DNA of 51,430 nucleotides, taken from Candidatus Roizmanbacteria bacterium RIFCSPLOWO2_01_FULL_37_12 (GTDB lineage Bacteria; Patescibacteriota; Microgenomatia; UBA1406; GWC2-37-13). Positions within the stretch are counted from its first letter, which is position 1; every line of letters starts with the position of its first letter. Below the pieces are notes generated by a model. It was not told the origin of the DNA, searched no databases, and saw only the letters and a program-made list of their open reading frames with translations. Below are positions 29,299-45,552 of this stretch, one piece after another. Location of the stretch: NCBI GenBank assembly GCA_001789645.1, contig MGAG01000010.1, forward strand, positions 87,170-138,599, in the 5' to 3' direction. A program made the translations under genes and the position numbers.

Positions 29299-30342
29299 CT
29301 ACCTTGTTCTTTCCATCATGAAGACGATAAAAGATGTCAGAATCTTCTGTAATTTTTTGTCCGATGTGATTGCGGGGACTGCTTTTTTGCCATTCTTAAC
29401 ATAGTCCCAACCGAGTTTAATAACGTAATCATAGGCCCCGATTTCTTTAAATAACTTTTGAGCTTTATTTACGTCTTGACTGTTGACATTCTTATTTCCA
29501 AGTATCGACAAGATAAAAGATTTTTGTTTTGCATTTCCATGTTTTAACAGATAGTAAACAAATAGGGTTTTTTTTCCTTCTTTTAAATCAGAACCAACCG
29601 GCTTACCCGTCTTTTCCTTATCACCATATAAACCCAAAACATCATCCTGGATCTGGAATGCCCAACCCAGTGCAAGTCCATATTCCTTCAGAAGTCTTAG
29701 CTTTTTTTCATCTTTCATACCACCCAAAATTGCGCCTACTAAAAGGGGGAAAACGCCGGTATATTCAGCCGTCTTATATCTTAATTTACTGAGAATGTTT
29801 GTTTTTGAAATTGTTTTATTATTGTCAGGGACGATGTCTAAAATTTGGCCATAGATTACTCTTGTCAAAAATTCAGAGTAAATTTTTCCGGCTAAAATTA
29901 ATCTTTCAGTTGGAAAATTACTATTCATCAATTTCTCCCAAGAAAGATAAAATGCCAGATCTCCGGCATTTATAGCCATGGATTTGCCCAAGTGTTCAGG
30001 AGAGTATTGTTTATGAAGACTTGGATGTCCGCGTCTTAAGTCAGTATTATCCATAACATCATCATGAATCAGAAGACCCGAATGCATCAACTCGATAAAT
30101 AAACTTGCATCATAAATAGCTTCTAATTTTTTACCTCCAGCTATCTCAAATCCCAAAACCATCAGAGCCCCTCTTATTTTTTTCCCTAAAATCGCCGTTT
30201 TTATAAATTGCTTTAGCAAATCGTAAGGATTTGCACCTATTTTTCTTGCTTCATTTTTTTTTGCATTAAAGAAGTAATTAAATAGAGGTATAGTTTTTTT
30301 GCTATAATTTTCCAAATAAGACAAAACCAAATTGTCTTTCAT
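29299..30342 (-). CDS. Trans-polyprenyl diphosphate synthase
   Basis: A 347-residue all-helical prenyltransferase that condenses isopentenyl diphosphate onto an allylic starter. The first Asp-rich motif is DDVMD (in HSGLLIHDDVMDNTDLRRG) and the second is FQIQDDVLGLYGD; KPVGSDLKEGKKT follows. Residues just before the first motif are small or aliphatic, which suggests a product longer than C15, but chain length cannot be fixed from this. It lies 5 bases after uppS, so a polyprenyl starter and the undecaprenyl synthase are co-expressed and draw on the mevalonate genes next door. Confidence 0.93.
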   Translation of the reverse strand: MKDNLVLSYLENYSKKTIPLFNYFFNAKKNEARKIGANPYDLLKQFIKTAILGKKIRGALMVLGFEIAGGKKLEAIYDASLFIELMHSGLLIHDDVMDNTDLRRGHPSLHKQYSPEHLGKSMAINAGDLAFYLSWEKLMNSNFPTERLILAGKIYSEFLTRVIYGQILDIVPDNNKTISKTNILSKLRYKTAEYTGVFPLLVGAILGGMKDEKKLRLLKEYGLALGWAFQIQDDVLGLYGDKEKTGKPVGSDLKEGKKTLFVYYLLKHGNAKQKSFILSILGNKNVNSQDVNKAQKLFKEIGAYDYVIKLGWDYVKNGKKAVPAITSDKKLQKILTSFIVFMMERTR

Positions 30343-30347
30343 TTTAT

Positions 30348-31037
30348 TTATTTCCCAAATCTTCTTTGACGCAAAGAATAATCACGTACTGCCTTCTCTA
30401 ATTCATTAGCGCTAAAATCGGGAAAAAATAGATCTGAAAAATATAGCTCGCTATATACGCTCTGCCAAGGTAAAAATCCTGAAAGTCTTTTTTCTCCTCC
30501 GGTTCTGATAATTAAATCTGGATCTGGAATCCCTTTCGTATCTAAGAAATTACAAAATTTGTCTGAGTTTAAATTCTGAATTCTGAATTCTGAATTCTGA
30601 ATTCTTTTTACTGCTCTTATAATCTCTTCTCTTCCTCCATAATTTAAAGCAAAAACTACAGTCATTTTTTTATTATTTTTTGTTTGTTCTAAGCTTTGTG
30701 TAATTAAGTCTTGAATGTCCTTAGGAAGTTTTTTGAGATTACCAATCATCGTCATCCTAACTCCCTTTTTTTTAAATTCTTTTATTTTATTTTTTAAAAA
30801 AAACCTGGTTAAATTTAAAAGCCTGTCAACTTCATTTTTAGTCCTTTTTTCTAAATTTTCTGTAGATAGTGCCCAAAAAGTAAAATACTTAACACCTAAA
30901 TTACCTGCTTTTTCTAATAAATCCGGGAGATTTTTTTCGGCTGCAAATCTATGTCCCTGATAAGTCGGAAGCCCTCTCTTTTTTGCCCACCGCCGATTAC
31001 CGTCCGGGATAATTGCAATATGAGTTGGAACATTCAT
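30348..31037 (-). CDS. uppS: Undecaprenyl diphosphate synthase (cis-prenyltransferase)
   Basis: Makes the C55 lipid carrier for peptidoglycan and surface glycans. Motifs are clear: IIPDGNRRWAKKRG with the catalytic Asp, YFTFWALSTEN, FALNYGGREEI, IIRTGGEKRLSGFLPWQ and YSELYFSD. The length (229 residues) is normal even though a heptamer tract (30573-30605) inserts RIQNSEFRIQN into the hinge region between GGREE and LDTKGIPDPD. The -10 box TATAAT, 8 bases before the ATG, overlaps the end of an inverted-repeat element. The gene is co-transcribed with the prenyl synthase. Confidence 0.95.
   Translation of the reverse strand: MNVPTHIAIIPDGNRRWAKKRGLPTYQGHRFAAEKNLPDLLEKAGNLGVKYFTFWALSTENLEKRTKNEVDRLLNLTRFFLKNKIKEFKKKGVRMTMIGNLKKLPKDIQDLITQSLEQTKNNKKMTVVFALNYGGREEIIRAVKRIQNSEFRIQNLNSDKFCNFLDTKGIPDPDLIIRTGGEKRLSGFLPWQSVYSELYFSDLFFPDFSANELEKAVRDYSLRQRRFGK
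30573..30605. repeat. Heptamer tract inside uppS
   Basis: Four full copies of ATTCTGA plus five bases of a fifth, 33 bases, in frame within uppS. Change by one unit would shift the frame; change by three units would add or remove seven residues. Confidence 0.9.
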
Positions 31038-31512: not shown

Positions 31513-31845
31513 ATGCAACCTGGTCAAATATTTGGCACAATCGCAGCTCCGACAGGAGCTCCGAAAGATCTCGGGGTATTCATCGGTGGAGCAATTAAAA
31601 TATTTATAATCGTGGCTGGGATCTTTTTACTTATCTATATGCTCTGGGGAGCCTTTGACTGGATTACCTCAGGGGGTGAAAAGGAAAAAATCAGTAAAGC
31701 TCAAGCTAAAATAACCAATGCGGTAATCGGAATGTTTTTAGTCATAGTTGCCCTGACCCTTTTCAATCTGATTGCAGGTAATATTCTTAAAATTATCAAA
31801 GTAACACCCAAAGGCTGGGAAATTACTCTTCCAACTTTAAGATAG
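31513..31845 (+). CDS. Small two-helix membrane protein, T4SS-pilin-like (second of a pair)
   Basis: A 110-residue paralogue of the preceding protein: YMLWGAFDWITSGGEKEKISKAQ between two hydrophobic helices, with the second helix IGMFLVIVALTLFNLIAG. A short polar tail (KVTPKGWEITLPTLR) follows. It is separated from the first copy by 3 bases with no Shine-Dalgarno site. Its 3' end overlaps the convergent decarboxylase gene by 9 bases. Confidence 0.75.
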   Translation: MQPGQIFGTIAAPTGAPKDLGVFIGGAIKIFIIVAGIFLLIYMLWGAFDWITSGGEKEKISKAQAKITNAVIGMFLVIVALTLFNLIAGNILKIIKVTPKGWEITLPTLR

Positions 31846-32817
31846 GTCGTTTTTGATTAATCTGGCTCCACTGGCTGGTTTATTTAAGATAAAATCATTA
31901 AATTTATTATCCCTGAGTTTTTTTAATAAGTCGTTAGTATCATTTTCTTTTGAGAAAAGAAATAAGTTAGGACCTGCATCAATCGAAAAATAAATCTCTA
32001 GCCCCTCCTGTTTCCAAATCTGAATTAAATTCATTAATCTAACTGTTTCAGGTTGCCAATAAATAATTGGAGGATTTGAAGTTAACGTTAAGGCGTGTAA
32101 TTCGAGTGCTTCTCTTTCAACTAAATGGCCAAATTTTGCAAAATTTTTTTCTTTAATAAATTTCTTAACATCGGTTATCTTTTTTTTAATATTTTTTAAT
32201 CTGGATTTAAAAAATGGGCTTTCTTTAACGACTCTATGGCCTTGAGTAGAACTGACTTGTTTTTTTTCTCGCCCAACAACAACAACCACTATTGTTAATT
32301 TCCAATAATCAGGTGGAAAAATTGACAAAGCATAAGAAGACTCATGAGAGTTGCCCTCCAACCATTCAACAAATCCATCAGGGATAGATCGGCAGGCAGA
32401 ACCCGAAGCGACTCTAGCTAAAATTGTTAGATCTTTTTCCGAAAGTTTCAAACCAGCAGCGTTTGATGCGGCTACCGTCAAAGCAGCATAGCCTGAAGCA
32501 GAAGACGCTAGACCAACCGAATCCGGAAAATTAGTTTGAGTAATTGTCTTTGCTTTATAGTTTATCTTTGCTAAATTCCTAATCCTGTTTAAATGAGCGA
32601 TAACCCTTTTATGTGTTCTTCCCTCTCCTACTATTTTTTTGTTATAGAAGATAATATCCTTTTTTAATTTCGGTGAAAATTCTACAGTAGTAGTTGTTAA
32701 AAGATTGCTCAAATTAACTGAAACGCTTCCATTACTTGGAATTCTTAATTTTTCAACTTTTTTCCCCCAATATTTAATAAAGGCAATATTTGAAGGAGCA
32801 ACTGCAGTAGCTTTCAT
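31837..32817 (-). CDS. mvaD: Diphosphomevalonate decarboxylase
   Basis: A 326-residue GHMP-fold enzyme that converts mevalonate diphosphate to isopentenyl diphosphate with ATP and loss of CO2. Diagnostic motifs are APSNIAFIKYWGK at the N-terminus, VGLASSASGYAAL (phosphate loop), GSACRSIPDGFVEW, and SIDAGPN with the catalytic Asp. All key residues are present, so it should be active and is the last committed step of the pathway. Its start overlaps the Nudix gene stop (ATGA), showing one operon with the two kinases. Confidence 0.96.
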   Translation of the reverse strand: MKATAVAPSNIAFIKYWGKKVEKLRIPSNGSVSVNLSNLLTTTTVEFSPKLKKDIIFYNKKIVGEGRTHKRVIAHLNRIRNLAKINYKAKTITQTNFPDSVGLASSASGYAALTVAASNAAGLKLSEKDLTILARVASGSACRSIPDGFVEWLEGNSHESSYALSIFPPDYWKLTIVVVVVGREKKQVSSTQGHRVVKESPFFKSRLKNIKKKITDVKKFIKEKNFAKFGHLVEREALELHALTLTSNPPIIYWQPETVRLMNLIQIWKQEGLEIYFSIDAGPNLFLFSKENDTNDLLKKLRDNKFNDFILNKPASGARLIKNDLS

Positions 32818-33311
32818 ATAATCTTTAACGATTTTAAACCTTTTAAGGCGAATGGAGTTAGCTTATCAACAATTTTTTTAATTTTTTTTGGCGATAAAAA
32901 ATCTACTTTTTCAACTTCATCATGATCAATATTAAAAGGTCCTTCGAAATTTCCCTCATAAATCGCATCCATTTCAGATTCCTGATTACTTTTTAATATT
33001 ATTTTTTTCTTAAATCTTAATTCTGTTTTTATTCCCAATTCTTCAAATAATTCTCTTCTGGCCGCTTCCAAGTATGTCTCTCCTTTCCCTACATGTCCTG
33101 CCGCGGACATGGAGAAAAATCCTGGGTTAGTGTCTTTGGACTTGCTTCTTTTTTGCATTAATAATTCACCCTTGCTGTTAAAAATTACGATTGCGATTGC
33201 ACGGTGTATTAATTTATTATTGTGGTGGCAATCATATCTGGTCCTATAACCCAGAATATTGTCATCTTTATCAACGACAACAAACATTTCTTTTTGATCA
33301 TCTTTTGGCAT
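32814..33311 (-). CDS. Nudix hydrolase, IDI/YfcD-like, without the IDI catalytic cysteine
   Basis: A 165-residue Nudix protein related to type I isopentenyl diphosphate isomerase. It has HRAIAIVIFNSKGELLMQKRS, the Nudix box GHVGKGETYLEAARRELFEELG and a metal-site Glu region (QESEMDAIY). The IDI active-site cysteine, NSVCGHP in E. coli, aligns to SAAGHV, so Cys is Ala. Motifs and the C-terminal LTPFALKGLK resemble YfcD-type hydrolases. It sits between a GHMP kinase (2-base gap) and mvaD (ATGA overlap), so it must serve the same pathway, perhaps as an unusual isomerase or a diphosphate hydrolase. Confidence 0.8.
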   Translation of the reverse strand: MPKDDQKEMFVVVDKDDNILGYRTRYDCHHNNKLIHRAIAIVIFNSKGELLMQKRSKSKDTNPGFFSMSAAGHVGKGETYLEAARRELFEELGIKTELRFKKKIILKSNQESEMDAIYEGNFEGPFNIDHDEVEKVDFLSPKKIKKIVDKLTPFALKGLKSLKII

Positions 33312-33313
33312 AA

Positions 33314-34228
33314 TTATTTTTCCAACCTGACCCCTTCTGCATTATTTTTAATATTTATAATTTCCCCGCCGGCATTTTTAATTGCTTTTTCTACTTCACT
33401 TCTTTTGCCGTCTGAAACAAGTGCAATCATACAGTCTCCACCGCCCGCACCGGATAATTTGGCTCCGAATGCTCCGGCTCCCAATGCGGCATCGTTCATT
33501 TTATCAAGTTGAGGAATGCTTACCCCTAATTTCTGCAAATATTTCTGGTCTTTACTCATTAACTTCCCGAGTGCTGAATAGTTTTTTTCAATCAGACTTT
33601 TTTTGGCTTTATTAACTAGGTCAGAAATCTGAATAAAAATCGTGACCATCTCAGGCTTTCTGTCTTTAAATGCCTCTGCTACTTTTCTTACATAATATGG
33701 AGTATCTGCTTTAATTCCTGAATAACCAACAACTAACGGGATAGAATCAATTAGTAATGGCTCAATAACTTTTCCGCCCTTGACAAAATATAAGGTCCCT
33801 CCAAAAGTTGCTGCTGCAATATCAAATCCTGATCCGACACCCTGAATTTTGATGGTTACTGTGAAACTTAAATTAAAAATTTGCTTTTTTGTTAAATCCA
33901 GATTAAATAGTGAATTCAAAGCAGAAAAAGTTGCTACGGTTACAGCCGATGAAGAACCCAATCCTACATTGTGGGAAAAATCTCCCTGAGTAGCTATTCT
34001 TATACGTTTATTAATTTTGAATTTTTCCCTGAAATAAGCTAGAGTCTCCAAGACAAATCTACTCTCTTTAACCTGCGGTGTTATTATTTCATCTTCTTTT
34101 TTTTCTATTATTTCCGCCTCAACATATAATCTTTTGTCAACCGCTGTCACAATACAGGGATAACCGTAAACCACAGCATGTTCCCCCATCAACATCAACT
34201 TTCCCGGAGCAGATGCCTTAATTTTCAT
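33314..34228 (-). CDS. Phosphomevalonate kinase-like GHMP kinase
   Basis: A 304-residue GHMP kinase. Motif 1 is APGKLMLMGEHAVVYG, the ATP loop is HNVGLGSSSAVTVA, and motif 3 is KLSGAGGGDCMIALV. The segment GVGSGFDIAAATFGG, with GSG-x-D rather than the SGVDN of mevalonate kinase, and the GGGDC ending favour phosphomevalonate kinase (second phosphorylation). The neighbouring GHMP protein has the mevalonate kinase signature. The two could in principle be swapped. It is in one operon with the Nudix and decarboxylase genes. Confidence 0.78.
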   Translation of the reverse strand: MKIKASAPGKLMLMGEHAVVYGYPCIVTAVDKRLYVEAEIIEKKEDEIITPQVKESRFVLETLAYFREKFKINKRIRIATQGDFSHNVGLGSSSAVTVATFSALNSLFNLDLTKKQIFNLSFTVTIKIQGVGSGFDIAAATFGGTLYFVKGGKVIEPLLIDSIPLVVGYSGIKADTPYYVRKVAEAFKDRKPEMVTIFIQISDLVNKAKKSLIEKNYSALGKLMSKDQKYLQKLGVSIPQLDKMNDAALGAGAFGAKLSGAGGGDCMIALVSDGKRSEVEKAIKNAGGEIINIKNNAEGVRLEK

Positions 34229-34308: not shown

Positions 34309-35256
34309 TTAAATTAATTCTTTTTTAACACCTTCGTAGGACTGTTTGAATTTAAAGAATTTAATATTTTTATTTTTACAATATTTTTCCAGCACTTTAG
34401 GCTTATCCGTAATAAAAAGCATATAGCCTGACCCTTCTTTTTTACCACCGCCGCCCGTAACCTTTCCATACCCGTATGATTTCAAATTTTTCAATAATTT
34501 TTTTGCCTTATCTGAAACAACCCCCAGCATATCCAAAAATATTTGATTGTCTATTAACGACTTGGCAAAAAATTCCCTGTCTTCCTTAACTATTGAAACT
34601 ACCATCCTTTTCGTAGTTTTTTCAATATCATTCAGAATTTCTTCAACCAATCTGGGAGATTTATTATATTTTCCTCCCACAACGTTGTTTACCAAATATC
34701 CGGTCGACTCAACCGGATTTCCGCTGTCAATTAAATATAATCCCTCCTCAATTTTTTTAGGAATCTTAAAATTCAAAGAGGAAATATTCTTTAAAAACTC
34801 AAACTCCTTCCGGTAAAAAATCAATCCGCCAAAACAAGATACGGAATTATCCACTCCGGATGCATTGATATGAAAATACTTTTCGCACTGGTAGGCAATA
34901 TTATTGATTATTTCCTTCTCAAAATTTCTACCTGAATAAAATTCCAAAAAGGCTGCAGTTGCAGCAACGCAGAATGCCGCTGAAGAACCCAGCCTTTGTT
35001 TAATGGGAATAGTTGAGTTAATTTCATAACCGAATGGCTTATCCTCAAAATTTATTTTTTGTTCATTAAGATAACTCTTTACATTCTTGGCTATCATCAA
35101 AATAATTTCATCTTTGCTGTTTTTTTTATCCTTCCAAACCCTGATCTTTAATCTGAAATCCAATGCGGAAACCAGCGCAGGCTTTCCGTAAACAACCGCA
35201 TGTTCTCCGGAAAGTATTACTTTTGCCGGAGCAGAATAAGAAATTTGTTTTGTCAT
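34309..35256 (-). CDS. mvk: Mevalonate kinase
   Basis: A 315-residue GHMP kinase that phosphorylates mevalonate. Motif 1 is SAPAKVILSGEHAVVYGKPALVSA, the ATP loop is QRLGSSAAFCVAATAA, and NASGVDNSVSCFGGLIFY is the mevalonate kinase signature with the catalytic Asp. The third motif is KVTGGGGKKEGSGYMLF, a slightly expanded form of the usual GAGGGG. A gap of 80 bases with a palindrome separates it from the second kinase. All catalytic elements appear intact. Confidence 0.88.
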   Translation of the reverse strand: MTKQISYSAPAKVILSGEHAVVYGKPALVSALDFRLKIRVWKDKKNSKDEIILMIAKNVKSYLNEQKINFEDKPFGYEINSTIPIKQRLGSSAAFCVAATAAFLEFYSGRNFEKEIINNIAYQCEKYFHINASGVDNSVSCFGGLIFYRKEFEFLKNISSLNFKIPKKIEEGLYLIDSGNPVESTGYLVNNVVGGKYNKSPRLVEEILNDIEKTTKRMVVSIVKEDREFFAKSLIDNQIFLDMLGVVSDKAKKLLKNLKSYGYGKVTGGGGKKEGSGYMLFITDKPKVLEKYCKNKNIKFFKFKQSYEGVKKELI

Positions 35257-37525: not shown

Positions 37526-37780
37526 ATGAAAAAGTACTACCAAATTACCAAAATAGGTAATAGTTTATTCGCAACCCTTTCGAGTAGACTTGTAGAATTA
37601 CTTAACTTAAAAGCCGGAGATCAGGTTTTTTATGAGGTCGTTCCAGGAAAGAAAAAGGTTATTATGAATATAGTTGAAAATAGCAACTTCGAAGAAAAGA
37701 ATAAATTAATGGAGGATCTAAATGATAAAGATAAAGATTGGATTAAAAAGAATGCAGGTAGTTTATCTACTAAAAAATAA
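37526..37780 (+). CDS. AbrB/MazE-like antitoxin
   Basis: An 84-residue protein whose N-terminal half has the swapped-hairpin AbrB pattern (YYQITKIGNSLFATLSSRLVELLNLKAGDQVFYEV). The C-terminal half is a charged tail (EEKNKLMEDLNDKDKDWIKK) of the kind that binds a toxin. It lies 2 bases before a PIN-domain gene, forming a VapBC-like pair inserted on the opposite strand between the IspG-like and HD-methyltransferase genes. A -10 box lies 7 bases before the ATG. Confidence 0.8.
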   Translation: MKKYYQITKIGNSLFATLSSRLVELLNLKAGDQVFYEVVPGKKKVIMNIVENSNFEEKNKLMEDLNDKDKDWIKKNAGSLSTKK

Positions 37781-37782
37781 AG

Positions 37783-38259
37783 ATGAAGTCTGTTTATATT
37801 GATCACAATATTATTGTTGCTTTTTTTCTGCAAGACCATCCTCTTCATAAACAAACCATTGGAGATATAGCTTTATTTCTAAAACAGAGGGATAATTATT
37901 TTTGTTCATTAAATGCCATTTACGAAGCTATCAATAAACTAAATAGTTCACTTTATAGAATAAAAAATAGCGCCTTGCTTCCAGCTAATATTGAAGTAGA
38001 AAAAGAAGTAGTTAGCAAAATAACAAACTTAATCAAGAGGGTAGGAATAAAAATAATTCATATCAATAATCAAAATATATTTTCTCACGCCTTATCTCTG
38101 CAGTTGGAATTTAAAGCGCCCTTTAATAATGCTTTTTATACAGCTATACTGCAGGAACAAAAAATAAAATATATTGCGACTTATGATGAGGGGTACAACA
38201 AATTATTTAGCGAAGGAGTCTTAATTAAATATCAACCTCATAGAATTCCACCAGGTTAA
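37783..38259 (+). CDS. PIN-domain toxin
   Basis: A 158-residue PIN-domain RNase. The N-terminal YIDHNIIVAFFL strand carries the first Asp, SLNAIYEAINKL has the second acidic residue, and the C-terminal YIATYDEGYNKLF supplies the last. It follows the AbrB-like antitoxin by 2 bases and ends 4 bases from the convergent IspG-like gene. It is a little longer than standard VapC (about 130), with an extra helix in the middle. Confidence 0.83.
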   Translation: MKSVYIDHNIIVAFFLQDHPLHKQTIGDIALFLKQRDNYFCSLNAIYEAINKLNSSLYRIKNSALLPANIEVEKEVVSKITNLIKRVGIKIIHINNQNIFSHALSLQLEFKAPFNNAFYTAILQEQKIKYIATYDEGYNKLFSEGVLIKYQPHRIPPG

Positions 38260-38263
38260 TAAT

Positions 38264-39319
38264 TTATTTATTTGCAGGTACTAAATTATTTAGTTCGTCA
38301 AGAAGTGTTTTTAGAATTTCATCTTTTTCAACTCTTTTTATTTCCTCACCTTTTTTAAAGATTACGCCTACATCTCCATCAGCAGCTACTCCTAAATCTG
38401 CAGTTCGCATCTCATCTTTTTCAACCAAAGAAGCTAAAATTACTATTTTTAATGGTGAGGTAACTTGGATTAACTCCTCTTCTAGACGTTGAGCAATTTC
38501 ATCAACTGGAATTGTGGATCTTGAACTATAGCCGGCAATAACAATCGGGCCTTCTCTTAATCCAAGCGATCGTAACAAATAATGTCCGGCTAAAACTTCT
38601 TTTTTGGGATTACCGGCCAAGGTAAACCTGAGAGTGTCACCTATTCCACTAAGTAAAAGGTGCCCTACACTTACACTCGTTTTTACTAAACCGCCAAAAG
38701 AAGAACCTGCTTGCGTTAATGCGATATGAATAGGATAAGTAGTTTTTTCTGCAAATTTCAAATTTGCTTCAATTGTCTGTAAAACATCCGAAGCCTTGAG
38801 TGAGACGATAATATTATCAAACCCTTCTTTTTCAAATTCATTAACTGCCTGATAAGCTGATTCTAACATCGCTTCCGAAGTCTGCCCATATTTGTCCAGA
38901 ATATTATTGGGTAAAGATCCCATATTAATACCGATTCTCACTGGGATATTGAAAGATTTTGCTTCGTTAATAACTCTTTTTAAGTTGGTCAACTCAAGTT
39001 TTCCAGGGTTAATTCGTATTTTATCTGCACCTCTTCTTATAGCCTTTAGGATTACCTCGTCGTTATATAAAACATCAGCAACTAAGGGAATATTTATTTC
39101 TTTTTTGATCTGTGAAATTGAATCGGCCTCATTTACATTATCGACAATCACCCGTACAATTTCACAGCCTATTTTTTCCAACTCTAAAATTTGATTTATT
39201 GTAGCTTTTATATCAGTAGTTTTTGTCGTACATAAAGTCTGAACCCGAATCGGATTGAAGTTGCCTAAGGCAACATTACCTACATTAATTTTTCTGCTGG
39301 CTCTACGTTTGATTTTCAT
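38264..39319 (-). CDS. IspG/GcpE homologue lacking the iron-sulfur cysteines
   Basis: A 351-residue protein that aligns with IspG, the 4Fe-4S enzyme of the MEP pathway, over its whole length: VGNVALGNFNPIRVQT, ADKIRINPGKL, RIGINMGSLPN, SLKASDV, GIGDTLRFTLAG and TADLGVAADG. Conserved functional residues are replaced: DIHFD reads DVLYN (~81), TEAG reads TQAG (~200), ACPTC reads AGYSS (~262) and GCVVNGPGE reads ASLVEKDEM (~293). All three cluster cysteines are gone; only two other Cys remain. It lies 10 bases behind the DUF35 gene in the mevalonate operon, so it cannot be a normal MEP enzyme. Its function is unknown. Confidence 0.85.
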   Translation of the reverse strand: MKIKRRASRKINVGNVALGNFNPIRVQTLCTTKTTDIKATINQILELEKIGCEIVRVIVDNVNEADSISQIKKEINIPLVADVLYNDEVILKAIRRGADKIRINPGKLELTNLKRVINEAKSFNIPVRIGINMGSLPNNILDKYGQTSEAMLESAYQAVNEFEKEGFDNIIVSLKASDVLQTIEANLKFAEKTTYPIHIALTQAGSSFGGLVKTSVSVGHLLLSGIGDTLRFTLAGNPKKEVLAGHYLLRSLGLREGPIVIAGYSSRSTIPVDEIAQRLEEELIQVTSPLKIVILASLVEKDEMRTADLGVAADGDVGVIFKKGEEIKRVEKDEILKTLLDELNNLVPANK

Positions 39320-39329
39320 ACTTGATAAA

Positions 39330-39638
39330 TTATACAGTATTTATTGGCTTAAACTTTAATCCATAAGGGATTACATCCTCAGAATTACTCTCTCTTACCT
39401 TTCTAAGAATCGAGATAACTCTTTCTCCCATTTTTAGATTTTTTTTATCATAATCTACTAATTGACCAACAGCTTTTTTTCCATTTTCAAACTCAACCAA
39501 AACCACAGGATAGGGTGCGTATTTTTTAAAATCTTTGCCTGAAACATAAATTAATGTCCAGGTTAAAATTACTCCTTTTATACCTAAGAGGTTTCGAATT
39601 TCTTTTTGCCTTCGCCAAATTTTTACTGGTGATATCAT
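39330..39638 (-). CDS. DUF35 OB-fold protein without its zinc ribbon
   Basis: A 102-residue protein. The C-terminal OB fold is typical of archaeal DUF35 proteins that bridge acetoacetyl-CoA thiolase and HMG-CoA synthase in a channelling complex: WTLIYVSGKDFKKYAPYPVVLVEFENG, then VGQLVDYDKKNLKMGERV and YGLKFKP. The N-terminal Cys-rich zinc ribbon of the family is missing; the helix PVKIWRRQKEIRNLL runs directly into the OB fold and the protein has no Cys at all. Its position next to thiolase and HMG-CoA synthase supports the assignment. It is likely co-transcribed with the IspG-like gene. Confidence 0.82.
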   Translation of the reverse strand: MISPVKIWRRQKEIRNLLGIKGVILTWTLIYVSGKDFKKYAPYPVVLVEFENGKKAVGQLVDYDKKNLKMGERVISILRKVRESNSEDVIPYGLKFKPINTV

Positions 39639-39718: not shown

Positions 39719-40870
39719 TCAACAACCCAATATTGTAACTACTGCTGTTCCCCCCGATCCTCCAACATTATGAGCTAAACCGTATTTAGCATTTTTCACT
39801 TGTCTGTTTGACGCTTGCCCGGTTAGCTGCAAATAAATTTCTCCAATTTGTTTAATACCAGTTGCGCCTACCGGATGACCGGACGCTTTTAACCCTCCCG
39901 AGGTATTTATAATCAATTCACTGTTTGAGCCATGCATGGTAGATAATTCTTTTATTAATTTTCCACCCTCACCTTTTTTCCAAAATCCCAAGTCTTCCAT
40001 TGCTATTACTTCAGCTATGGAAAAACAATCATGTAACTCAGCCACATTGATTTTTTTTCTGTTTACTTTACCGGCAACAAACGCTTTATCAGAAGCTATT
40101 TTAGTAGTCAATACTTCATCCAATCGTTTTCTCTCTTTCAATGAAATCGTATCAGTAGCTACTTCGGATGCCAACAAATTTACAAACCTTTTTGACTTTT
40201 TAGTAATAGTATTATTATTAGTTAAAATTACGGCTGATGCACCATCTGATGTTGAACAACAATCTAATACTTTTAAGGGATAAGCTACGTAGGGACTGTT
40301 TAAGACTTTTTCAACTGAAATAATTTTGCGAAAATGTGCCTTATCATTTAAACTTCCATGATAGTGATTTTTATATGAAACATATGCGAGATCTTCCTCA
40401 GTGCAGAGATATTTTTGTAAATAATAATTAGCCATCATGGCATAAAGACCCGGGAAGGTTAAACCCGCTTCCTGCTCTTCGCCAGAGGCGGCTGAAGCTA
40501 ATGCTGAGGTTGTTTCTTCCGGTGAATAGTCAGTCATTTTTTCTGCTCCAACAACAACAACTGTTTTACTCGATTTTGATTCAAGATAAATTTTTGCCAG
40601 ATGAAAAGCAACTCCACCTGAAGCACATGCCGCCTCAACTCTGAATATTGGGATATTGACTCCCAATATCTCGGCAATTTTAGAAGGAGTGTGCAAATTA
40701 TTCTCCAGTACACCTGCCAACATATTGCTAAAAAATATCGCATCGATCTCTCGCTTATCCAGTCCCGTATTTTTTAAAACTCCGTTTATGGCTTCCTCGA
40801 TTAAATCAGACAGGGATTTCTCCCAAAGTTCGCCGAATTGAGTAGTGTAATAACCGATTACTGATATCAT
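39719..40870 (-). CDS. Thiolase (acetoacetyl-CoA synthesis), archaeal type
   Basis: A 383-residue thiolase of the SCP2-like/archaeal group, which condenses two acetyl-CoA in the first step of the mevalonate pathway. The nucleophile is Cys in RVEAACASGGVAF (~82). Other motifs are DCCSTSDGASAVIL, NVAELHDCFSIAE with the active-site His, and SGGLKASGHPVGATG. The final motif NVGGSGGTAVV lacks the second Cys of the classical class, as in archaeal homologues. Next to HMG-CoA synthase and a DUF35 protein, it very probably forms the archaeal-type complex. Confidence 0.92.
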   Translation of the reverse strand: MISVIGYYTTQFGELWEKSLSDLIEEAINGVLKNTGLDKREIDAIFFSNMLAGVLENNLHTPSKIAEILGVNIPIFRVEAACASGGVAFHLAKIYLESKSSKTVVVVGAEKMTDYSPEETTSALASAASGEEQEAGLTFPGLYAMMANYYLQKYLCTEEDLAYVSYKNHYHGSLNDKAHFRKIISVEKVLNSPYVAYPLKVLDCCSTSDGASAVILTNNNTITKKSKRFVNLLASEVATDTISLKERKRLDEVLTTKIASDKAFVAGKVNRKKINVAELHDCFSIAEVIAMEDLGFWKKGEGGKLIKELSTMHGSNSELIINTSGGLKASGHPVGATGIKQIGEIYLQLTGQASNRQVKNAKYGLAHNVGGSGGTAVVTILGC

Positions 40871-40958
40871 ATAGATTTTTAGTTGCTTAGTTTATTAGTT
40901 ACTTAGACTCGCTTCAGTTCTAATTAACTAAGTAACTCATAACTAAAGAACTATATAG
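40869..40958. repeat. TTAGTTACTTAG-type imperfect inverted repeat
   Basis: Two arms of about 38 bases, left with TTAGTTGCTTAG and TTAGTTACTTAG, right with CTAAGTAACTCATAACTAAAG, separated by a short centre. It fills the gap between HMG-CoA synthase and thiolase and contains the synthase stop codon. Confidence 0.65.
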
Positions 40959-41973
40959 TATTCATATACTTCAAATACGTCGGGTAATCAATATATCTTT
41001 TATCCTCAACTATTTTTTTAAATGCCCTTCTCCTTTTATCCAGATTTTTTGTCACTTTAAAGACAAAAGCGTCAGACCCTGCTCCCGATCCATATGAGGC
41101 TAAAAGAATTATGTCTCCGGTTTTAGATTTTTCCAGGACGGAAACTAGACCCATTAAAGCTGTAGCCGTATAAGAGTTACCCAGGTAATCCACGATTAGA
41201 GATTGTTCAATCTGCCATTTGGAAAATCCTAAAGTACGCGCAACTTCCCGGGGAAACTTGCCGTTGGGCATATGAAATACGGCACGAGCAAAATCCGTAG
41301 GTTTCATTTTTGTTTTATTCAGCAAACTCTTCACAACATTTTCAATATGAAAAAAATAAGACGGTTTCCCTGTAAATCTGCCCCCGTGTGAAGGATACCG
41401 GATTCCTTCCCTGCGCCAAAAGTCCGGAGTATCAGACGAAAAAGAAGTTTGGTCAACTATTTCCAAAATCACATCTTCTTTTCCCAACAGAAAAGCTGCC
41501 GACCCTGAAGCTGATGTATACTCTAAAGGGTCGTGAGGTTTAGAGTTTGCTTTATCTGCCCCGACTACCAAAGCATAATTTGTATAACCGGATATGACTA
41601 ATGAACTCGCGGTGATCATAGCTCCGGTCGCGGCCTTACAAGCAAATTGCGTATCATAAGCCAAATAGTTGTGATCTATATCCAAAAACTCTCCCAAAAT
41701 TGTCGAGGCAGGATTAACCACATATGGAGGCGTTTCCGATCCAAAGAAAACGGCTTTTATATCGTCCTTTTTTAAGGATAAACCACTCATAGCCATTACT
41801 GCAGATTCATAAGCCATTGTTAATGAATCTTCATCGTTACCAGCAACGGCTTTTTCCATCACTCTTAACGACTTTTTTACATCTTCCGGATTTTTCCCCC
41901 AAACATTTGCAATTTCTTCAATCTTAATACGGTATTTTGGAATATAAAAACCGTACGAAACGATACCAATCAT
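40951..41973 (-). CDS. Hydroxymethylglutaryl-CoA synthase, archaeal type
   Basis: A 340-residue HMG-CoA synthase that adds acetyl-CoA to acetoacetyl-CoA. Catalytic residues can be placed: Glu in EKAVAGNDEDS, nucleophilic Cys in DTQFACKAATGAM (~110) and His in AVFHMPNGKFPREVA. The length and the N-terminus GIVSYGFYIPKYRI match the archaeal form rather than the larger eukaryotic one. It is upstream of thiolase and downstream of HMG-CoA reductase, giving the first three pathway enzymes in a row. Confidence 0.94.
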   Translation of the reverse strand: MIGIVSYGFYIPKYRIKIEEIANVWGKNPEDVKKSLRVMEKAVAGNDEDSLTMAYESAVMAMSGLSLKKDDIKAVFFGSETPPYVVNPASTILGEFLDIDHNYLAYDTQFACKAATGAMITASSLVISGYTNYALVVGADKANSKPHDPLEYTSASGSAAFLLGKEDVILEIVDQTSFSSDTPDFWRREGIRYPSHGGRFTGKPSYFFHIENVVKSLLNKTKMKPTDFARAVFHMPNGKFPREVARTLGFSKWQIEQSLIVDYLGNSYTATALMGLVSVLEKSKTGDIILLASYGSGAGSDAFVFKVTKNLDKRRRAFKKIVEDKRYIDYPTYLKYMNTI

Positions 41974-42076: not shown

Positions 42077-43201
42077 TTAGCGTCCTAATAATTGATGTGA
42101 CTTAGCCAAACTTCCTTCTTCAAGAGACGAAAGGAGAGATATCTCTCCGGCAAGTACAGTTGATATAAATACACCTGCCAACTCTTCCGATGTTTTTGCT
42201 CCGATTATCGACAGGGCTTCCTGCTTGATCTTCAATTTTGTCCCGCCGCCCACAGTTCCGATCATTATTGCCGGCATATAGACAGAAAAATATAGATCTC
42301 CGTTTTTAAGAGGTTTTACAAATGTAATGCCTAAGCTTCCCTCTACAGTATGACTCAAATCCTGCCCGGTGGCCGCAAAAAAAGACGATGTAGCATTTGC
42401 GAATTGAGCGTTAAATCCAAGAGATCCACTCATGGCAGATCCGAGCATACACTTAGTTAACCATACTTCAAAAATATGAGAAGCGTCTGATTTCAAAACT
42501 TCCTTGATAATTTTATTGGGCATTATGACTTCCGCCCAAGCTTTAAATCCACGATTACTGATAAAATTTAACCAGGCCGGTTTTTTATCAATATCAAAAT
42601 TACCTGCAACCGATAAGCATTTAGTCTTTGTTTCTTTCTCGATTAATTCCACTATCTTTTGCGTTGCTATGGTAACCATGTTCATTCCCATAGCGTCCTT
42701 CGTGTTAAAATAAAATCTTACATAGGCGTAACAACTTAAAGTTTTGACCTCAGCTTTAATAAATTTCAGATGTGAGGATGTTTTTTCTGCTTCTTTTCCC
42801 AGCATTTTTTCATTCTTTTTTATCCATTTATAGAAATAGTTGCTTTTCTCAATTCCCCCAGTATAAAAAACAGGGCCTCTTGTTGAACCAACTCTGTGTG
42901 TATTTACAATTGCTCCGCCCGAAATAGTAATCGCCTTACTACCTCTATTAAACGAAGCTACCAGGGCTCCCTCAGTAGTAGCTAAGGGAACATAGTAATG
43001 TTTTACGATATTAGTTTTATATTTTATTGCAAGCGGCCCAATAACGCCAAGCGGTAATGTAGTTGCTCCGATTAAATTCTCACAGTTAATATTTTTTTCG
43101 TCTTCAAAGAAAGCTTTTTCCGTGTAAGGTAATTTAATATTTAACTCGTTTTCTAAAAAATTTCGTCTTACTTTTGAGTTTTTAAGTCGTGACAATCTCA
43201 T
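42077..43201 (-). CDS. hmgA: Hydroxymethylglutaryl-CoA reductase, class I
   Basis: A 374-residue enzyme that reduces HMG-CoA to mevalonate with NADPH, the pathway's committed step. Visible are ENLIGATTLPLGVIGP, TTEGALVASFNRG (catalytic Glu), DAMGMNM (catalytic Asp), DIDKKPAWLNFI (catalytic Lys), GTVGGGT and the C-terminal SHQ (catalytic His). There is no N-terminal membrane domain, as in archaeal and bacterial class I forms. TTEGCLVAS is the usual form; the Cys is Ala here. It is the first gene of the isoprenoid series. Confidence 0.95.
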   Translation of the reverse strand: MRLSRLKNSKVRRNFLENELNIKLPYTEKAFFEDEKNINCENLIGATTLPLGVIGPLAIKYKTNIVKHYYVPLATTEGALVASFNRGSKAITISGGAIVNTHRVGSTRGPVFYTGGIEKSNYFYKWIKKNEKMLGKEAEKTSSHLKFIKAEVKTLSCYAYVRFYFNTKDAMGMNMVTIATQKIVELIEKETKTKCLSVAGNFDIDKKPAWLNFISNRGFKAWAEVIMPNKIIKEVLKSDASHIFEVWLTKCMLGSAMSGSLGFNAQFANATSSFFAATGQDLSHTVEGSLGITFVKPLKNGDLYFSVYMPAIMIGTVGGGTKLKIKQEALSIIGAKTSEELAGVFISTVLAGEISLLSSLEEGSLAKSHQLLGR

Positions 43202-43254: not shown

Positions 43255-43866
43255 CTAAATAAAGGGAATTCTGAAGATTTTAAAATGAAAGAGAAACACC
43301 GAATAAGGAATAAACCAGAGTAAAAATAGTATCATCAAATACATAATCCTATAAAATCCCAATTTGGTTGAAAATCTTAATGCTAAGTAAATAAGTATTA
43401 ATTTCCACGTAAGTAAACTGATCGAATATGAAATATAAAAAATGCTGAACCCCTTACCGAGAATTGAATATGATCTGGGTGGAGGAATAAAGACATACAA
43501 AATTGAATTTGAGACAAACCAAAAAAGAGTCGGAATTAGAGTGTAAGAAAAAGTGAGAATAAAGCCCGGAATTTTAATTTTATTATTTGATACTCCTCCC
43601 AGGAAATAAAAAAAAGCCATAGTGAATAAAAAATGTAATATGAATACCAGGAATGTTATTGTCGCCGGATAAGGATCATCCCGTAAGAAATAAACGAATT
43701 TAAAATATAAAAAAACGGTCAAAAATATTAAAAATGCTTGACCGAAGTCTTTTCCTCGGCTGATATTCCGCATTGTTCGATAAGGTGAAAAAATCAAAAG
43801 GAATATATTTCTTAAAAAGAATACTGAGGACGCTAATAAATTAGCGATTGCATTTTTAAAATCCAT
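43255..43866 (-). CDS. Six-helix membrane protein, possibly YIP1-like
   Basis: A 203-residue protein with about five or six hydrophobic helices and the N-terminal amphipathic segment IFSPYRTMRNISRGKDFGQAF that in Yip1-domain proteins precedes the membrane part. The Yip1 assignment is weak. It overlaps the preceding small gene by 11 bases and is the last gene of the operon starting with the sigma factor. It may be a membrane partner or target of the sigma-factor response. Confidence 0.55.
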   Translation of the reverse strand: MDFKNAIANLLASSVFFLRNIFLLIFSPYRTMRNISRGKDFGQAFLIFLTVFLYFKFVYFLRDDPYPATITFLVFILHFLFTMAFFYFLGGVSNNKIKIPGFILTFSYTLIPTLFWFVSNSILYVFIPPPRSYSILGKGFSIFYISYSISLLTWKLILIYLALRFSTKLGFYRIMYLMILFLLWFIPYSVFLFHFKIFRIPFI

Positions 43867-44089
43867 ATTGCAGTATGGACACTAATTTGATTGTTAGTGT
43901 ACCAAACAGCAGATACAGAATCAGCGCCCCGACAAAAGATGAGGGAATAATAAGAATAAAAGGCATTGTTTTAAAAAATTTAGTCACAAAATGATACATG
44001 TTTGTCAGCACGGGAATGCCCAAATCATTTGGTTGAACGGAATAAACTTCGTCTAATTTTTGCCGTAACCTGTAATTCAAGGTTTTCAT
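43856..44089 (-). CDS. Small membrane protein behind the sigma factor, possible anti-sigma
   Basis: A 77-residue protein with a soluble N-terminal part (MKTLNYRLRQKLDEVYSVQPNDL) and one or two membrane helices at the C-terminus (FILIIPSSFVGALILYLLFG and TIKLVSILQYGF). It starts 7 bases after the sigma factor stop. Small membrane proteins in this position are often anti-sigma factors, but there is no recognisable anti-sigma domain. No function is proven by sequence. Confidence 0.6.
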   Translation of the reverse strand: MKTLNYRLRQKLDEVYSVQPNDLGIPVLTNMYHFVTKFFKTMPFILIIPSSFVGALILYLLFGTLTIKLVSILQYGF

Positions 44090-44096
44090 TTATTAT

Positions 44097-44651
44097 TTAC
44101 GATAGTGTCTGGAATATTTTAATAAATGCTTTTCTTGCTCTGAATAATAAACTTTCGGTTGCCTTAAAGCCAATAGATAGTTTTTCGGCAATATTATTAA
44201 CTCTCTCACCATCTATATATTTAAGTCTCAAAATAACCCTGTAATCATTTGGAAGCATTTCCAAAGTTTTCTTAATTTTTGTTGAAAGTTCTTTTTTCTC
44301 AAGCTCATCGTCGATAAGAAAAGTTTTTAGCCCTTCTATAAAATAAGAGGGTAGTGCCGAAAAAAGTATTTTCTTAAGCTTCTTTTTTCTTATGTAATCT
44401 ATTGTCTTATTCCTGGCAATCGAATAAAGGAACGTTTTAAGAGAACTATGGTATTGGAAATCACGCAGAGCCTCTATAAAATCAAGAAAAACATCCTGAC
44501 TTATCTCCTCCGCAACATTGTAATCTTTCAATTTGCGATAGATAAAATGCTGTATTGACTTTTGGTATTTCTGATACAAAAAAAGGAGCGCTTTTTCGTC
44601 TTTTTGAATAATTCTTTGAACTAATTCTTTTTCATCAACTCTTTTTAACAT
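44097..44651 (-). CDS. ECF-type RNA polymerase sigma factor
   Basis: A 184-residue group IV sigma factor. Region 2 includes NVAEEISQDVFLDFIEALRDF and IARNKTIDYIRKKK; region 4 is LEMLPNDYRVILRLKYIDGERVNNIAEKLSIGFKATESLLFRARKAF. Only regions 2 and 4 are present, as expected for ECF factors. The start at 44651 is preferred because a -10 box ends 6 bases upstream. The earlier in-frame ATG at 44672 overlaps the divergent gene. The divergent DUF4340 gene shares the -10 region, so both may be controlled together. Confidence 0.92.
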   Translation of the reverse strand: MLKRVDEKELVQRIIQKDEKALLFLYQKYQKSIQHFIYRKLKDYNVAEEISQDVFLDFIEALRDFQYHSSLKTFLYSIARNKTIDYIRKKKLKKILFSALPSYFIEGLKTFLIDDELEKKELSTKIKKTLEMLPNDYRVILRLKYIDGERVNNIAEKLSIGFKATESLLFRARKAFIKIFQTLS

Positions 44652-44656
44652 GGTGT

Positions 44657-44663
44657 TATAATA
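44657..44663. promoter_or_regulatory. Overlapping -10 elements of the sigma and DUF4340 genes
   Basis: TATAAT on the plus strand (44657-44662) ends 8 bases before the ATG at 44671. TATTAT on the minus strand (44663-44658) ends 6 bases before the ATG at 44651. Both mRNAs should be leaderless and the two start sites exclude each other. Confidence 0.65.
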
Positions 44664-44670
44664 TTCTACC

Positions 44671-45552
44671 ATGAAACAAAATCAATCTAGACTTATAAAA
44701 TTGCTGGTAGTTCTAATTGTGGTATTTGCTATCTTTGTTCTGAAAAATGAGATGCCGAGATATTTTCCGCAAAAAGTAAACCAACTTTTTTCCTCAATTA
44801 AAAAGGGTCAAATCAATGAAGTCATATTAACAAAAAACCAAGCTGTTAGGATTTATAAAAAGAATAATAACTGGTATGTAAAAAAAGACAATAACGAATT
44901 CAAAGCTGAAAGAGAAAGAGTTGAAAAAATTATAGACAGCTTCCTAAATCTTAAAAAGGAAAATATAGTATCCAACAATAAAAATAAACACAAAGAGCTT
45001 GGGATTGATAAACAAAAAATTGAGATTAAAGCTGGCGGAAAAACATATGTAATCTATCTTGGAAATACTGACGGATTATCAAATAACTATATTCGAATCG
45101 AAAATGAAGATGACGTTTTTAAAGCGGAAGTCTTCGAGGATGCTTTTACTTCAGACGATTATCGGGACCTCTCTTTAGGGCTAATTAATGACGAAAATAA
45201 AGTAACTTCCGTTATTATTGGAAATAGCGATTCTTCAGTTTCTCTTGTAAAAAATAAGAACGATTGGAAAATCGGAGAAAAAATTGCCAAGAAGGATCGT
45301 GTTGAATTTTATCTGAATGACCTTAAGACTCTTAAAGCCCAGGATATTTTGAATAAGAAAGAAAATTTTTCCACGGTTAATCTCGAATTAACCGTAAATA
45401 TAAAAGAAAACAATAAAGAAAAAAGTATATCTTTTTATCCCGAAAATGAAGAGGCTTACCTAGCTATAGTAACTTCTTCTGATTTTGACTATCTTATTCC
45501 AACAGCTTACGTCGCTTCATTAAAAAAGGAAGAAAAAGATTTTTTGGAGTAA
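44671..45552 (+). CDS. DUF4340-like membrane-anchored protein
   Basis: A 293-residue protein with an N-terminal membrane helix (LIKLLVVLIVVFAIFVL) and an extracellular beta-rich part. The opening of that part, GQINEVILTKN ... VRIYKKNNNWYVKK, and a later repeat of the pattern (SVSLVKNKNDWKIGEK) are typical of DUF4340 proteins, which in other bacteria accompany ABC-type gliding or surface systems. No such transporter is here. It may be a surface component controlled with the divergent ECF sigma factor. Confidence 0.7.
   Translation: MKQNQSRLIKLLVVLIVVFAIFVLKNEMPRYFPQKVNQLFSSIKKGQINEVILTKNQAVRIYKKNNNWYVKKDNNEFKAERERVEKIIDSFLNLKKENIVSNNKNKHKELGIDKQKIEIKAGGKTYVIYLGNTDGLSNNYIRIENEDDVFKAEVFEDAFTSDDYRDLSLGLINDENKVTSVIIGNSDSSVSLVKNKNDWKIGEKIAKKDRVEFYLNDLKTLKAQDILNKKENFSTVNLELTVNIKENNKEKSISFYPENEEAYLAIVTSSDFDYLIPTAYVASLKKEEKDFLE

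Follow-up and report, generated by a model that had tools for sequence, protein, structure and literature searches.

IspG (GcpE) is a textbook iron-sulfur enzyme and a drug target. The locus described here raises the question of what an IspG homologue without its cluster cysteines does inside the mevalonate operon of a Candidatus Roizmanbacteria genome. We analyzed a 51,430-nucleotide stretch of that genome (hereafter the window), in which the following features bear on the question (coordinates within the window, strand in brackets):

29299–31037 (−): prenyl diphosphate synthase and undecaprenyl diphosphate synthase
31837–33311 (−): diphosphomevalonate decarboxylase and isopentenyl-diphosphate isomerase type I
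33314–34228 (−): mevalonate kinase (GHMP kinase)
34309–35256 (−): second GHMP kinase, probably phosphomevalonate kinase, from its position and a weak score
35298–37397 (−): 699-aa protein with a C-terminal SAM methyltransferase domain and, by eye, an HD-hydrolase-like N-terminus; within the insertion described below
37526–38259 (+): pair of an AbrB-like protein (by eye, no Pfam match) and a PIN-domain protein (weak, just under the cut-off); within the insertion
38264–39319 (−): cluster-less IspG/GcpE homologue, 351 aa, from profile match and alignments
39330–39638 (−): DUF35-type OB-fold protein, 102 aa, without N-terminal zinc ribbon; partner gene of thiolase and HMG-CoA synthase (HMGS)
39719–40870 (−): acetoacetyl-CoA thiolase (archaeal-type thiolase family)
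40951–41973 (−): HMG-CoA synthase (archaeal type)
42077–43201 (−): HMG-CoA reductase

The reading frame of the IspG-like gene is intact, starts with ATG and encodes 351 aa. Its product matched the Pfam profile PF04551 (GcpE) over positions 2–342 of 343 (E = 1e-98, 331 bits against a curated cut-off of 32), which places it in the family by homology over the full length and bears out the alignment reported in the initial annotation of this DNA. The protein also scored 296 bits against TIGR00612 (ispG; cut-off 280) and 339 bits against PRK00366, slightly short of that model's cut-off of 345. With a score above the TIGR00612 equivalog threshold, the protein may be labeled an active IspG by automated annotation. 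We found no second IspG homologue in the genome of the window; this copy is the sole one.

The gap between the DUF35 stop codon and the IspG-like gene measured 10 bases, the spacing originally given. The operon holds a candidate gene for each step of the mevalonate route (phosphomevalonate kinase being weakly assigned), in line with the complete route claimed at the outset. Upstream of HMG-CoA reductase lie a sigma-factor-like gene and a gene for a 203-aa membrane protein without Pfam match (43255–44672, −); across the class, many genomes have this gene pair at the same upstream position (loci L014–L028), as a conserved part of the mevalonate neighborhood. DUF35 proteins structurally characterized by 2019 all bind zinc (PMC6996347). 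The DUF35 of the window consists of an OB-fold of about 100 aa only, and none of 30 homologues from the class (including L060–L064 and L087–L111) carries the four-cysteine zinc ribbon; judging from these sequences, a zinc-free DUF35 seems to be the rule in these mevalonate operons.

An AlphaFold2 model of the IspG-like protein, built from three sequences (mean pLDDT 78, pTM 0.75), had Aquifex IspG 3noy as its best Foldseek match (339 columns, E = 1e-30, TM 0.65), with an rmsd of 8.9 that probably reflects uncertain domain placement in the model. The barrel alone matched Bacillus IspG 4mwa with a TMt of up to 0.86 and an rmsd of about 2. Both the TIM barrel and the C-terminal cluster domain are predicted to persist. 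Dihydropteroate synthases came next among the matches; the barrel fold is alike in these and other phosphate-binding TIM barrels, at a sequence identity of 10–16%.

We aligned the two cluster-less proteins, that of the window and its orthologue described below, with 55 other IspGs (54 from Patescibacteria genomes and one from Clostridiales). Forty-three columns aligned to the query were near-invariant, defined as at least 95% invariant among the 55 others. Both cluster-less proteins kept 32 of these columns; 11 were changed, 10 of them to an identical residue in both proteins, and three further near-invariant columns (C, G and G) fell in gaps of the query. The changed or deleted residues (M29, G200, E203, S233, residues of CPxCG (CPTCG), M295, G296, C297, N300 and G302, with a glycine deleted between) lie mostly around the cluster and at the catalytic acid. 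The three cluster cysteines, present in all 55 other IspGs wherever the sequence covers the column (54 or 55 per column), are missing, with AGYSS standing for CPTC and ASLV for GCVV. The active-site histidine H84 has become leucine, and the catalytic glutamate (Glu232 of Thermus IspG; PMC11218510) is Q203 in both proteins, against glutamate in 53 of the 55 others. The residue swaps listed in the initial annotation (ACPTC to AGYSS, GCVV to ASLV, TEAG to TQAG, and D-(I/V)-H-F to D-V-L-Y-N) were all correct. Changes at these last two sites also occur in otherwise canonical, cysteine-bearing IspGs of Patescibacteria: the catalytic glutamate is histidine (THAG) at L036 and L047, and the active-site histidine is glutamine (DVQF/DLQE) at L008, L009 and L076.

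The IspG cluster recognizes the substrate, carries electrons and acts as a Lewis acid (PMC12648460); with the cluster absent, IspG chemistry is not expected. In Thermus IspG the cluster is held by three cysteines and Glu350 (PMC11218510), and the latter, E303 here, is present in both proteins. The kept glutamate position might suggest that the protein is still an IspG whose cluster or metal is held by other ligands. However, of the two remaining cysteines, C30 and C52, C30 alone is common to both orthologues, and neither genome encodes DXR or IspH; we give this explanation practically no credence.

Kept in both proteins are R56, R102, N104, R128, N132, S135, K175, R231, R267, E303 and D308. 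These include the counterparts of all five MEcPP-binding residues of Thermus IspG: Arg56, Arg110, Arg141, Lys204 and Arg260 (PMC11218510, a paper on Zymomonas IspG) correspond to R56, R102, R128, K175 and R231, respectively. As read from the alignment, the protein has lost its redox parts and kept its substrate grip, the MEcPP pocket. Compared with canonical IspG (e.g., Bacillus 4mwa), it shares full-length homology, the TIM barrel and C-terminal domain, the MEcPP-binding Arg/Lys residues and the cluster-domain glutamate, but lacks the cluster cysteines, the catalytic glutamate and the active-site histidine, in a genome without DXR and IspH. Because all five Thermus MEcPP-binding residues are kept, binding of an isoprenoid diphosphate, one of the two ligands first proposed, is plausible on sequence grounds; the other, a CoA intermediate, found no support.

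The explanation we prefer, tentatively and at somewhat below an even chance, is that this pseudo-IspG serves as a metal-free diphosphate-binding regulator, a feedback sensor or buffer for products of the mevalonate route. The retained Arg/Lys/Asn pocket of the TIM barrel, which grips MEcPP in IspG, would bind a small isoprenoid-type diphosphate from the mevalonate route without metal; candidate ligands are IPP/DMAPP, mevalonate diphosphate or a short prenyl diphosphate. The ligand would close the barrel against the C-terminal domain without redox chemistry, and this closure could alter how the protein meets a partner; the presumed regulatory output would be feedback or buffering.

Counting against a regulator, such a conserved pocket can equally serve catalysis. 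The protein might be a new metal-free enzyme (for example, an isomerase, lyase or phosphatase acting on an isoprenoid or sugar diphosphate) whose pocket holds another substrate and which performs acid-base or nucleophilic chemistry via K175, D82, E303, Y264 or C30. Strict retention of the pocket core, E303, D308 and R267 is consistent with this, as is C30, which is shared by both proteins, atypical of IspG and situated within QTLCTTKTTD (canonical QSMTQTKT); the dN/dS reported below is also as low as that of a neighboring enzyme gene (thiolase). However, no known catalytic constellation is recognizable, and each mevalonate step already has a candidate gene, leaving no gap to fill. We consider a new enzyme unlikely, while giving it serious weight.

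The five kept residues would also suit a receptor that senses MEcPP produced and released by neighbor or host cells with a MEP pathway. Some bacteria export MEcPP, which acts as a stress signal by a mode of sensing still to be resolved (PMC11192765). As the genome has no DXR, MEcPP would need an external source and a putative means of uptake. Moreover, the cluster that MEcPP binds is gone, and E203 (near the C3 hydroxyl of MEcPP in Thermus IspG) and H84 are changed, which makes such a receptor a long shot.

We found one orthologue of the IspG-like protein, in a Candidatus Roizmanbacteria MAG (G004; contig JACQRR010000043.1, 7.7 kb). It is 351 aa long and 85% identical, comes from an independent assembly and shows the same residue losses. 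The gene order is also that of the window: HMGS, thiolase, DUF35, the IspG-like gene, PIN/AbrB on the other strand, the methyltransferase (699 aa in the window, 723 aa in G004) and a GHMP kinase. The initial annotation had named a frameshift or assembly error hiding the cysteines as an alternative; this is ruled out by the syntenic orthologue, which lacks the same cysteines. Overlapping samples of genomes from the family (72), order (83), class (373) and phylum (380) yielded no further cluster-less member, and 2.9 million viral contigs yielded none either. A scan of GTDB contigs, whose reach was limited by its short peptide patterns, had just two hits: the orthologue in G004 and a canonical IspG from Clostridiales. 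The IspG-like protein is rare, occurring in two genomes and having one origin.

Comparison of the two species revealed purifying selection. The dN/dS of the IspG-like gene (NG86) was 0.040 (dN 0.086, dS 2.15), a rough value given a dS near saturation; equally rough values for the same reason were 0.046 for thiolase, 0.138 for DUF35 and 0.213 for the methyltransferase. The IspG-like gene had the lowest dN among the genes of the cassette. In a maximum-likelihood tree, the cluster-less pair had a stem of 1.97 and tips of 0.10–0.15 changes per site, and the long stem with short tips indicates that IspG chemistry was lost and strong constraint followed. Together with the dN/dS, this pattern resembles that of a protein that changed function and then came under constraint again. 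The pair fell outside the clade of the family's canonical IspGs (support 100/100), a placement that long branches make unsure; descent from the family's own IspG is unsupported by the tree, whose backbone is weak as regards the donor lineage.

Decay of a relic left by a vanished MEP pathway would explain the missing catalytic residues, given that the genome has neither DXR nor IspH. However, the frame is intact, the two proteins are 85% identical at a dN/dS of about 0.04 with the same residues lost in both species, and the pair does not lie within the family's own IspG clade; we regard a relic as very improbable. The claim that this is a repurposed IspG fold and not an IspG was upheld by the losses in two species, the dN/dS, the lack of DXR and IspH, and the mevalonate operon around the gene. 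It is very likely that the protein is a pseudoenzyme derived from IspG and not a product of decay.

We surveyed the two pathways in 96 relatives, using IspG, DXR and IspH as MEP markers. HMG-CoA reductase was present in 47, IspH in 8, DXR in 8 and any IspG in 9; canonical IspG, IspH and DXR occurred together in seven genomes (G011, G019, G020, G032, G047, G052 and G075). No genome with IspH or DXR among the 96 had HMG-CoA reductase, and 46 of the 47 relatives with HMG-CoA reductase had no IspG homologue. Neither DXR nor IspH was found in the genome of the window (G000) or in G004, and a remnant MEP pathway is rejected on these two markers. The short G004 contig shows HMGS, thiolase and GHMP kinase, a partial operon; HMG-CoA reductase was not found in that genome, which is 79% complete. 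The predicted co-occurrence, with mevalonate genes present and MEP genes absent, held for DXR and IspH in two of two genomes, which share one origin and are not independent. The alternative of a MEP pathway with a second, canonical IspG found no second IspG and no DXR or IspH in its favor.

In three congeners (G001, G003 and G005), DUF35 directly adjoins the GHMP kinase, and the IspG-like, PIN/AbrB and methyltransferase genes are absent. A close homologue of the methyltransferase was found only in G000 and G004, the two genomes with a cluster-less IspG; the 699-aa protein had no match among solved structures (PDB), and it is possible that it is a functional partner of the cluster-less IspG. 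The AbrB-like/PIN pair (37526–38259, +), which is convergent with the IspG-like gene, is likely a toxin-antitoxin system. Most likely, one insertion event brought the IspG-like, PIN/AbrB and methyltransferase genes. The GHMP kinase past the insert in G004 (L025:6777–7717) is 62% identical to that of the window, compared with 70–80% for insert-free congeners, and the insert region may have been exchanged between lineages by recombination.

Because the two genomes share a single insertion, the operon position counts as one observation; because three congeners and 46 of 47 HMG-CoA reductase genomes lack the IspG-like gene, it is not needed for the mevalonate pathway. The original proposal of a role in, or regulating, that pathway is consistent with the operon position, but three congeners run the operon without the gene, and the link is weaker than claimed. 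The gene might instead be cargo of a cassette with the methyltransferase and PIN/AbrB genes, its function unrelated to mevalonate and its place in the operon an accident. The cassette sits exactly between DUF35 and GHMP kinase, neighbors in the congeners, and the close methyltransferase homologue is limited to the same two genomes, both of which fit such a passenger. However, the IspG-like gene shares the operon's orientation and follows DUF35 after 10 bases, its dN is below that of the other cassette genes, and its product descends from an isoprenoid enzyme; we hold cargo to be rather unlikely, slightly more so than a new enzyme.

The idea of a non-isoprenogenic role has precedent of a different kind, in the MEcPP signaling mentioned above and in Listeria. 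This bacterium uses mevalonate yet retains part of the MEP pathway together with a defective IspG (PMC13001223), probably for a non-isoprenogenic role. In Listeria, however, earlier MEP enzymes make MEcPP, whereas the Roizmanbacteria pair lacks DXR and IspH, and the losses in this pair fall in cluster and catalytic residues. Our literature search, with most subscription journals outside its reach, found no work on IspG pseudoenzymes or on IspG in mevalonate-using Patescibacteria, and no description of a selection-preserved, cluster-free IspG member.

For annotation, a pipeline label of active IspG may add a spurious MEP step to a genome that has only the mevalonate route. There is a slim chance of something larger: a metal-free, IspG-derived MEcPP receptor in a MEP-less bacterium, by which a presumed episymbiont would read the stress of surrounding MEP-using cells or, in broader terms, a novel kind of sensor for isoprenoid diphosphates, derived from a MEP enzyme and integrated into a mevalonate operon. 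If diphosphate binding proves true, the protein would supply a sensor scaffold for isoprenoid intermediates that is ready to use and stable to oxygen, and would illustrate cleanly how an enzyme of one pathway finds new use in an organism running the other.
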